Shown: one piece after another, positions 13,887-61,436 of the stretch | Layout: each line of letters opens with the position of its first letter | Position numbering within the stretch: the stretch's first letter is position 1 | Origin: an uncultured Clostridia bacterium | GTDB lineage: Bacteria > Bacillota > Clostridia > Christensenellales > Borkfalkiaceae | Length of the DNA stretch: 64,000 nucleotides | Assembly (NCBI GenBank): GCA_947627575.1 | Contig: CANQWN010000001.1 | Coordinates: forward strand, 62,001-126,000 | Direction: 5' to 3' | Program-made: the position numbers and the translations under genes | Notes under the pieces: generated by a model | Databases searched by the model: none | The model's input: the letters and a program-made list of their open reading frames with translations, nothing else | Told to the model about the DNA's origin: nothing

Positions 13887-15566
13887 ATGAATATCGATCA
13901 GATAAAATCAAATTGTTTGGAAGCAAACAGAGATTACTTTGAAAATTCCGTTTTGGTTGACGTGAACGGGATGGGTAAATATTTCAGCCCTTTCAGTCTT
14001 GCCGACGATAAATTCGAGGTTACGGGTCCCGTAATCGCAAATTACGTTGAAAACGGAGCGAGGAAAAATTACTGTCTGCCGCACCCGTGCCACACCATAA
14101 TAATAGGCGGCACGGGCTCCGGCAAGACGGAGTGCTATTTTTCGGCTCAGGCGGAAGCGTTCGCCAAATCGGTAAACAAGCCTTCGGTTTTCTTTATGGA
14201 CCTGAAAGGCGATTATTACAGAAATTTCTCGGGCTTGTATAAAGCTATGGGCTACAAAGTTTTTGTGCTCAATCTCAAACAGCCCTTTATGTCCTGCAGG
14301 TATAATCCGCTTACGCCCGTGTGGTTATGTTACCGCCGTTCGGTAAGCGCAAAGGCGCTTTTAAAAAATCCCACGGGGAACGAAAGGACGTTTTTGGATA
14401 AAACTTACGAAAGTTTTGCACAGTGGAAGGACGCCGTAAACTGTTATGCGATGGAAGAGATGGAGGAATGTCAAAATTATCTTCGGCGCATAACCAATAT
14501 GATAATTCCCCTCGAATCGGAAAAAGACCCCACGTGGGAAATGGGCGCCCGCGAAATGTTCTATAATCAGGCGATAGGGTTGCTTGAAGATTCCGCATAT
14601 CCCGAAAGGAGAATGAGCCGTGAAAAATTCACTATCGCAAATATCATAAGGATAGCCAATTGTACCGAAGATGATTGCGATTATATCTATGATTGGATAC
14701 GCGCACGCGACAAAAAGTCCGTTGTGCGCGGGCTTATGAACTACTACACGGAGCATGCAAAGGTAACCCGCGACGGCTACATAAGCACGTTTACTTCAAG
14801 GGTGGATAAGTGGAAAGGCTACGCGATAGAGTGGCTTACTTCCGATTCCGATATAGACGTGGAAAAGATAGTTGCAAGACTTAATTACGATAAGGTTGCC
14901 ATCTTCTGCATAACGGACGAAACCCGTCCCGAAACATACGACCTGTGTATGGCGCTGATGGACCACCTTATTTCCGCAATCAAGATCTACAACGACAAAG
15001 TAGAACCTATGCGCAGGGACTTCCACATACTCGCGGACGAATTTGCGAATATGCCGCCCCTTTCAAATATGCAAAACCGCATAACTACGCTTCGCAGTTA
15101 CAGGGTATGGTTGCATATGGGTATACAAAGTTATGATCAGCTTGACGATAAGTATAATGCAAACGTGCGCAATATAATTCTCGATAACTGCGACTGTCAG
15201 GTGTTTTTCGGAACCAATAATTCCAAAACGTCCTCCGAATTTGCAAGTTCGCTGGGCGAACGGATAGCCCCCGTATCGGGACACGTAATAGGGAACGACG
15301 GAAAACTTTCTATAAACATTTCGGCGGCAGACCGCCCTCTCATAAGGCGCAGCGACCTTGCCGCTTTGCAGTTGGGTGAAGCGTACGTCAAAGTTTTCAG
15401 AAATCCCACGGCGTTTACTTTATTGCAGCCCCACTTCAAATGCGCCGATCTTTATCACGGCGACGCCGAACCCGAAAGGGAAGAAGCCAATCTTGCCAAA
15501 CTCGAGGCTTCGGTATACGATATAAGATTGCTCGGTTTAAGAACCCGCACGCGTTTCGGCGACTGA
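13887..15566 (+). CDS. VirD4/TraG-like type IV coupling ATPase
   Basis: Walker A IIGGTGSGKTE, FFMDLKGDYYRNFSG, Walker B-like FHILADEFANMP, and SYDQLDDKY..ILDNCDCQVFFGTNN typical of TraG/VirD4. Confidence 0.85.
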   Translation: MNIDQIKSNCLEANRDYFENSVLVDVNGMGKYFSPFSLADDKFEVTGPVIANYVENGARKNYCLPHPCHTIIIGGTGSGKTECYFSAQAEAFAKSVNKPSVFFMDLKGDYYRNFSGLYKAMGYKVFVLNLKQPFMSCRYNPLTPVWLCYRRSVSAKALLKNPTGNERTFLDKTYESFAQWKDAVNCYAMEEMEECQNYLRRITNMIIPLESEKDPTWEMGAREMFYNQAIGLLEDSAYPERRMSREKFTIANIIRIANCTEDDCDYIYDWIRARDKKSVVRGLMNYYTEHAKVTRDGYISTFTSRVDKWKGYAIEWLTSDSDIDVEKIVARLNYDKVAIFCITDETRPETYDLCMALMDHLISAIKIYNDKVEPMRRDFHILADEFANMPPLSNMQNRITTLRSYRVWLHMGIQSYDQLDDKYNANVRNIILDNCDCQVFFGTNNSKTSSEFASSLGERIAPVSGHVIGNDGKLSINISAADRPLIRRSDLAALQLGEAYVKVFRNPTAFTLLQPHFKCADLYHGDAEPEREEANLAKLEASVYDIRLLGLRTRTRFGD

Positions 15567-16977: not shown

Positions 16978-17110
16978 ATATTATTTTATTTTTCCGCCCG
17001 CATCAAATATGCGCCCAAACGCGCAATAGGGTACAGCCGCCAAACGTTATTTCGCTGACGGCTATCAGCTAAAAACAAAACCGCCTTGAAAAAAGCAAGG
17101 CGGTTTAAAA

Positions 17111-17196
17111 TGGAGCTAATAGCAGGATTCGGTAGACGCAAAGCGTCGTATTTGGCGATAATGCGCCAAACGTTATTTCGTTGACGGCTATTAGCT
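17111..17196 (-). other. tRNA-like cloverleaf element, distal copy
   Basis: Same architecture; one mismatch in the terminal stem. Confidence 0.6.
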
Positions 17197-17236
17197 GAAA
17201 ACAAAACCGCCTTGAAAAAAGCAAGGCGATTTGAAA

Positions 17237-17322
17237 TGGAGCTAATAGCCGAATTCGGTAGACGCAAAGCGTCGTATTTGGCAATAATGCGCCAAACGTT
17301 ATTTCGCTGACGGCTATTAGCT
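17237..17322 (-). other. tRNA-like cloverleaf element, middle copy
   Basis: Same as proximal copy; one change in the central hairpin converts a pair to G-U. Confidence 0.6.
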
Positions 17323-17361
17323 AAAAACAAAACCGCCTTGAAAAAGCAAGGCGGTTTAAAA

Positions 17362-17447
17362 TGGAGCTAATAGCCGGATTCGGTAGACGCAAAGCGTCGT
17401 ATTTGGCGATAATGCGCCAAACGTTATTTCGTTGACGGCTATTAGCT
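17362..17447 (-). other. tRNA-like cloverleaf element, copy proximal to tRNA-Thr
   Basis: Minus strand: AGCTAATAGCC ... GGCTATTAGCTCCA, an 11-bp terminal stem with CCA overhang and three internal hairpins. Confidence 0.6.
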
Positions 17448-17486
17448 AAAAACAAAACCGCCTTGAAAAAGCAAGGCGGTTTAAAA

Positions 17487-17562
17487 TGGAGCTAATAGCC
17501 GGATTCGAACCGGCGACCTGCTGATTACGAATCAGCTGCTCTACCAGCTGAGCCATATTAGC
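17487..17562 (-). tRNA. tRNA-Thr (anticodon CGT)
   Basis: GCTAATATGGCTCAGCTGGTAGAGCAGCTGATTCGTAATCAGCAGGTCGCCGGTTCGAATCCGGCTATTAGCTCCA folds as a cloverleaf with encoded CCA. Confidence 0.95.
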
Positions 17563-32753: not shown

Positions 32754-32932
32754 ACAAAATTTCTGCGGTGTTCGTGGTATGGGAAATTCGTAATCCACAA
32801 AAATTTTCAGGGAACGTTTCGTTTGCGGAAATAGGCAAGGTCTGTTTGGTCGGAAAGTCTGATGTTTCGCTTCGGCGTACCCACCTGCGAGAAGCGGGTT
32901 AATACTTTTTCATACCACGGCACAGGCGGATT
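32754..32932 (+). ncRNA. ssrS: Probable 6S RNA
   Basis: Terminal stem GTGTTCGTGGTATG / CATACCACGGCAC closes a ~160-nt largely double-stranded RNA with an internal CCTGCGAGAAGCGGGTTAATAC segment. Confidence 0.6.
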
Positions 32933-32988
32933 TACGCGGTTGCATTACGGTGCAACCGCGTAAATCTTAATAAAGCAAAGGATAAAAA

Positions 32989-61214: not shown

Positions 61215-61269
61215 ACAGTTAATGCGGGGATTTATCAAAGCCTTTAAAAAGCGCAAAGGCGCAAAGCGT

Positions 61270-61367
61270 CGTCGCCTATGGCTCCTCGCGTGAACCGCAC
61301 GGGTTCAATCGTTACAGAATCACAAAACAAAAAAACACGGCAAAAACCGTGTTTTTCGTTTTGGTGA
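61270..61367. repeat. Right direct repeat overlapping the tRNA-Glu 3' end
   Basis: Counterpart of 57729-57825; ends with TGGTGA, the tRNA 3' TCACCA on the minus strand. Confidence 0.93.
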
Positions 61368-61436
61368 CCCTGCCGGGAATTGAACCCGGGATTGAGCCTT
61401 GAGAGGGCTCCGTCTTAACCTCTTGACCACAGGGCC
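61362..61436 (-). tRNA. tRNA-Glu (anticodon CTC)
   Basis: GGCCCTGTGGTCAAGAGGTTAAGACGGAGCCCTCTCAAGGCTCAATCCCGGGTTCAATTCCCGGCAGGGTCACCA. Confidence 0.93.

Follow-up and report, generated by a model that had tools for sequence, protein, structure and literature searches.

A tandem array carrying direct and inverted copies of a tRNA 3' end behind tRNA-Thr(CGU) in an uncultured Clostridia bacterium: an rtT-type architecture that recurs at other tRNA genes

Introduction

Behind the tRNA-Tyr gene of the Escherichia coli tyrT locus lie 178-bp direct repeats, in which exact 19-nt copies of the tRNA 3' end recur at +159, +337 and +515. The repeats also have an inverted arm that closes the fold; this arm gives a local score of 29, compared with 19 for the best noncognate tRNA, and none of 300 shuffles did as well. 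To our knowledge these tyrT/rtT repeats have remained a single unexplained case for decades. Two other kinds of sequence deserve comparison. The palindromic repeats known as REP, BIME and REPIN are moved by RAYT (Y1) transposases. Phages, islands and ICEs leave a duplication of the tRNA 3' end, and the attachment sublocations of tyrosine integrases include the T loop and the anticodon region (Williams 2002, as cited in PMC2647930). The tyrT repeats have been listed as REP-bearing (PMC12306157), and tRNA gene fragments are discussed in PMC9897764. A search of the open-access literature gave no paper devoted to the tyrT repeats, and parts of what follows may be described outside that set.

The array considered here lies in a 64,000-nt stretch of contig CANQWN010000001.1 (hereafter the window) from an uncultured Clostridia bacterium. 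Like tyrT, it consists of tandem repeats downstream of a tRNA gene, each with a copy of the tRNA 3' end running through CCA, an inverted arm that pairs with it and a hairpin-rich core, and the copies begin in the same T-loop stretch. In E. coli, by contrast, no comparable terminator is seen between the tRNA and the repeats, the inverted arm is out of register with a terminator, and the units are longer and contain a small annotated ORF (tpr). The array is rtT-type by architecture, without sequence homology to rtT: the family model for the E. coli RNA (rttR, RF00391) has no match in it, and its best match in the whole source genome, located elsewhere, reaches 14.3 bits against a cut-off of 45. 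With REP-like sequences the array and its relatives share the character of short dispersed palindromic repeats, one class being present in high copy; they differ in a design tied to tRNA 3' ends and in arms taken from the host tRNA. The direct copy from the T loop onward resembles the duplications left by phages and islands (sublocations as cited in PMC2647930). Those lack the inverted arm, the terminator copy, the gene-less insert of only ~105 bp between tRNA copies and the single core behind unrelated tRNAs that are found here. A genus in which such a plan recurs, with cores of several unrelated kinds and with arms that follow the tRNA, offers natural variation for studying the origin, the spread and the RNA relevance of these repeats.

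Results

Anatomy of the array

Direct reading places tRNA-Thr(CGU) at 17487-17562 on the minus strand, followed by a tandem array at 17038-17507 (-), to which Tandem Repeats Finder assigns a period of 126, 3.7 copies, 95% matches and a score of 863. The original prediction, made from the sequence alone, had described three units of ~126 bp after this tRNA, each with an 86-nt segment. Three full units of 125-126 bp are indeed present, and a truncated fourth follows them. One unit opens with a terminator hairpin and its U tract (hp1). Then comes an arm of 12 nt (T') whose sequence is that of the 3' strand of the tRNA acceptor/T-stem in reverse complement; a core follows, and the unit closes with the tRNA 3' end in direct orientation, copied from the T loop to CCA (T). 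The layout is tRNA-hp1-T'-core-T-hp1-T'-core-T, continuing. The core in the array units is about 53 nt long with two hairpins; among the units that share it, which we call class A, core length is about 55-75 bp. The features of the locus are as follows.

17487-17562 (-): tRNA-Thr(CGU), source of the copied 3' end (ARAGORN; Rfam RF00005, 73.5 bits)
17455-17482 (-): tRNA terminator hp1, copy 1, with an 11-bp stem and a U tract after it
17362-17447 (-): element 1, with T' arm at 17436-17447, hairpin core, and T with CCA at ~17362-17382 (class A model, 113 bits)
17330-17357 (-): terminator copy 2 (terminator search)
17237-17322 (-): element 2, in which a C-to-T change in a hairpin leaves a G-U pair (read directly, fold, class A model)
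17204-17232 (-): terminator copy 3 (terminator search)
17111-17196 (-): element 3, with a closing-stem pair broken by CCGG to CCTG (read directly, fold, class A model)
17078-17106 (-): terminator copy 4 (terminator search)
17038-17070 (-): truncated element 4, T' arm and core start only, at the array end (94% over 33 nt)

A terminator hairpin had been proposed for each unit, and four array terminators were located; in the whole window there are 9 terminator-like sites of all kinds, compared with 1.3 in shuffles. Promoter-like sites were found upstream of tRNA-Thr(CGU). The segment T-hp1-T' folds into a single hairpin (z = -9.9), interrupted by a 7/7 internal loop. As RNA, element 1 folds into a closing stem of 12 bp, two hairpins and a free CCA, with an energy of -34.2 kcal/mol (z = -6.3; 0 of 200 shuffles). 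The CCA overhang, the 3' end of ~20 nt copied from the tRNA and the G-U pair in the middle copy are as originally described. The stem details need revision: the acceptor-like stem, given as 11 bp, folds as 12 (seven acceptor pairs, four T-stem pairs and an extra A-U pair), and the proposed AACG/CGTT hairpin does not appear in the fold of lowest energy; there CGTT extends the TGGCG/CGCCA stem, and an 8-bp hairpin results. The rest of each element had been called unrelated to the tRNA. This holds for the remainder of the element and fails for the 5' arm, which is itself tRNA-derived in inverted orientation; T' of element 1 matches the reverse complement of the tRNA at 11 of 12 positions. Element 3, with its broken pair, is less stable (-28.1 kcal/mol).

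Neither ARAGORN nor Rfam calls a tRNA within the array elements, in agreement with the earlier remark that they have no tRNA-like anticodon or T loop. No credible Rfam match to the cores was obtained at E up to 0.1; matches to Plastid-ycf2 proved to be antisense to tRNA, and the remaining ones were weak. A coding function was also rejected: a 114-aa ORF (16986-17330) that runs through the array gives no match in Pfam, and with the 125/126-nt spacing its frame is lost from one unit to the next.

Recurrence behind other tRNA genes

When 93 genomes of the genus were searched with a covariance model of class A, 15 gave matches at E <= 0.001; among the weaker matches, L263, L269 and L276 were unlike the element on reading or unplaceable in a truncated stretch. 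Class A units stand behind Thr(CGU) in the source genome (G000) and in G021, G015 and G026, behind Thr(GGU) in G072, G088, G112, G032 and G034, behind Leu(UAG) in G032, Cys in G061, Arg(CCU) in G071 and Ser(GCU) in G072 and G071, and, across a run of N, behind Ser(UGA) in G071. At several of these loci the units stand in tandem. In the same order, two further families have class A matches at E about 1e-5; each lies beside a Thr(GGU)-like gene, and one is tandem. The core remains recognisable from tRNA to tRNA (CGAAATA..GCTATTCCGTCGC..CGCTCCTTAC) while the arms change. A loose form of the class A pattern has 88 genome matches; a tRNA adjoins one among those screened, the screen having covered matches other than L185-L192.

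Some arrays are mixed. In G032 the class A unit at Leu(UAG) precedes one with another core and a fresh T' and T, and in G026 two class A units at Thr(CGU) come after a unit with yet another core (class B). Such arrays cannot be made by plain tandem duplication and imply repeated events. One class B unit that was folded did no better than shuffles (z = -1.2).

Agreement of the arms with the resident tRNA

T' was compared with tRNAs in 17 units, of which one, the second at Leu, has another core. It agrees with the cognate tRNA at a mean of 9.8 of 12 positions, compared with 6.5 (maximum 8) for noncognate tRNAs even when the best of 30 positions is taken. In an alignment of 17 class A units, 86% of the cells in the 11-pair stem formed by T' and T are paired, against 67% in shuffles, and 9 of the 11 pairs show double changes. 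Covariation in this stem is 0.491, compared with 0.163 in shuffles (0 of 500) and at most 0.18 in structures slid along the alignment; the units are related and not independent, and the slid controls preserve this relatedness. The core hairpins show double changes as well, between G000, G021 and G015, and the first pairs of the closing stem are often lost in relatives. The proposed fold had originally been set against the case in which substitutions across strains ignore the pairing. Among the relatives, pairing is kept through double changes.

The arms change with the tRNA while the core stays, and hence the arms either derive from the resident tRNA or are kept equal to it. Since arms that copy a tRNA would keep their pairing through palindrome correction or gene conversion, the preserved pairing does not establish a tRNA-mimic RNA.

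Other cores with the same plan in the source genome

The genome of 1.59 Mb on 11 contigs contains the class A core at the array locus only. A search of it for the element at other tRNAs, as had been suggested, returns a single locus for this core, together with a different core behind four more tRNAs. With a near-exact copy defined as the last 20 nt of a tRNA at <=4 mismatches and <=450 nt from the gene, 3'-end copies were found downstream of 5 of the 42 distinct tRNAs (Thr-CGU, Tyr, Ser-CGA, Ser-GGA and Arg-CCG), which is far above chance. By the same criterion none of the 42 has a 3'-end copy upstream, and 5'-end copies were found on neither side of any of them.

The Tyr, Ser-CGA, Ser-GGA and Arg-CCG loci share a core that is unrelated to class A (class C, GTTCGCGCGAG..CGACGCTTTGCCGAGG..GGGAAACGGCAAAATCC). 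Most class C units in this genome open, behind a terminator, with a degenerate reverse complement of the resident tRNA 3' end, and at the Tyr locus two of them stand in tandem. At Arg-CCG the T' arm is not significant (z = 0) and the unit fold has z = -0.2. Class C is a high-copy dispersed repeat, with up to 60 matches in one genome (G014). It also occurs away from tRNAs, where some copies, as read by eye, have inverted flanks.

Three further loci may be recorded here. In the window, a weak class C match (18 bits, E 0.006) at 61228-61295 (-) lies directly downstream of tRNA-Glu(CUC) at 61362-61436, with a decayed inverted arm ahead of it. Between tRNA-Cys and tRNA-Leu(UAA) of the source genome (L093, G000:C9) there are two 5' fragments of tRNA-Leu-like sequence (TTGTGTGGCGGAATAGGCAGACGC) with a class B-like hairpin between them. 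In G019 (contig C52, L197, ~1447-1658) an extra tRNA-Thr has its T loop interrupted by a class C core, and an intact-looking tRNA-Thr follows ~40 bp further downstream; this case comes from one assembly and lies near a contig end.

Junctions and geometry

Read by eye, the T copies start in the T loop, near nucleotides 57-59, in class A and class C as well as in E. coli rtT; those of class B start in the variable/anticodon region. In 14 of 14 class A loci T' is found within -1 to +2 nt of the position that mirrors T on the far side of the terminator. Part of this regularity may follow from similar lengths of spacer and U tract, and we take it as support, not proof. With noncognate tRNAs as the reference, the fold-back score is high at most loci that have a T copy (mean z 3.0, n = 11) and close to zero at many tRNAs that have no element. 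It is also high at some loci that have T' and no T copy. T' therefore has two partners: one T lies upstream, beyond the terminator, and the other downstream, beyond the core.

Discussion

We favour, with confidence a little better than even, the reading that the array is a tRNA-anchored, rtT-type DNA-level repeat formed at the hairpins of the T loop and the terminator, with arms made by fold-back copying and growth by unequal exchange. What the sequences show is the anatomy, its return behind many tRNAs, arms that both agree with the tRNA they follow, a junction in the T loop and a T' close to the mirror position. The class C loci of the source genome, the mixed arrays, the class C core in the T loop of G019 and the tyrT repeats of E. 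coli speak for this reading too. From these observations we infer three steps. A palindromic core would lodge at the palindrome centre of the T loop in a tRNA gene; its arms would be made by fold-back (template-switch) copying between the two DNA hairpins that flank T, namely the T arm and the terminator; and unequal exchange between the resulting direct repeats would account for both the growth and the homogeneity of the array. An RNA product would be unnecessary for this, and if terminators were read through, the units might be processed like the rtT RNA as a by-product. Against fold-back copying it must be said that T-loop junctions would be equally expected from crossovers by tyrosine integrases. 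The process, if real, would be a possible source of structured sequences.

The conserved arm pairing also fits selection on RNA, and a functional RNA, either rtT-like or a tRNA mimic, must be weighed against this DNA-level repeat. Read-through of the terminators would then yield 86-nt RNAs, minihelices with CCA that would be handled by RNase P, RNase Z or the CCA enzyme and serve as decoy or regulator. The strong folding of element 1, its tRNA-sized minihelix (12-bp acceptor/T-stem) with a free CCA, the compensatory changes in closing stem and core hairpins, the promoter-like sites upstream of the tRNA and the precedent of rttR, an annotated small RNA in E. coli, are all in keeping with such a role. 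Yet four strong terminators stand before and between the units, the closing stem of copy 3 is broken and the first stem pairs are often lost in relatives, several other units (among them Arg-CCG and a class B unit) fold no better than shuffles, unrelated core sequences fill the same frame, and compensation is expected anyway if the arms are copied from the tRNA. We regard a functional RNA as unlikely, though worth keeping in mind. Similar doubt attaches to the idea of tiny circles being put into the T loop by a tyrosine recombinase that targets tRNA genes, with the T copies as attachment-site duplications and the arrays as successive integrations. The starts of T (T loop in classes A and C and in rtT, anticodon/variable region in class B) coincide with the sublocations used by tyrosine integrases, the mixed arrays would be explained, and an element end and an integrase-like stretch lie beside T copies in two genomes, as detailed below. 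A crossover explains neither the inverted T' nor the terminator copy, however; the units are too short for genes, and no donor with these cores appears among the viral contigs. On balance such integrations seem to us rather improbable. An artefact of assembly, or plain tandem duplication by no special process, is the reading we find hardest to credit: contigs of several relatives do end at tRNA-Thr(CGU), but the copies in the window differ from one another, homologous single and tandem units occur in many separate genomes and at many tRNAs, and plain duplication does not produce T'. Among the options of the original prediction, MITE-like palindromes and tandem mini-integrations came closest, given a core that recurs through the genus behind at least 6 tRNA species, arms from the host tRNA and some arrays of mixed cores; the original interpretation is partly supported.

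Whether by fold-back copying or otherwise, the design looks like a general kind of tRNA-tied repeat and not a local oddity, and what may be new is how widely it occurs and that its inverted arm tracks the tRNA. A bolder formulation, which we put forward tentatively and think less likely than not, is that of a distinct class of gene-less repeats that targets tRNA T loops, copies the host 3' end in both directions together with the terminator, and is refitted to each tRNA, E. coli rtT being one old member. Two candidate routes of movement were tried and set aside. Reverse transcription primed by tRNA, an idea raised by the 18-20 nt length of the T copies, is unsupported for present activity, as the source genome has no RVT_1 domain. 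Movement by a RAYT, as for REP/REPIN, fails for the source genome, which has no intact Y1 transposase; its sole Y1 match (L245, G000:C2:130529-130843) contains an internal stop, has no convincing class C repeat around it and was assigned by us, from its sequence, to a broken IS200-like TnpA.

Extra tRNA 3' ends may act as attachment sites for mobile elements. In G027, tRNA-Thr(CGU) is followed directly by two large serine recombinases with a shorter third recombinase between them (L246, 3658-7662). The end of this element recurs in G002 (L247) as a stretch of 331 bp and 98.8% identity behind the distal T copy; judged from this pair of sequences, a T copy can apparently serve as a landing place for elements. 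In G028 (L257), by eye, a coding-like stretch resembling the 3' end of an integrase lies just before the T copy that precedes a class A unit. The stretch contains no tRNA and is a probable prophage in tRNA-Thr(GGU). One could suppose that the extra T copies are kept because they divert integrative elements from the tRNA gene, and the comparison of G027 with G002, in which the element end abuts the tRNA in one and follows the distal T copy in the other, is what such decoys would give. It is a single case, however; the insertion in G028 lies in front of the unit, and a probable insertion in G016 is on the tRNA side of the unit, separating it from tRNA-Thr. Integration into tRNA genes normally restores the tRNA, and little benefit would therefore be expected. 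We consider decoy sites very unlikely.

The class A and class C core patterns have no match in the viral contigs, and the loose class A pattern has 4 matches there, none with a tRNA beside it. About 1.5 kb past the end of the array, at 13887-15566 (+), the window encodes a type IV coupling protein (TraG/VirD4-like, PF02534, 4.3e-30), which is a possible remnant of a mobile element. The window also contains a 6S RNA at 32757-32936 (+), with 55.1 bits.
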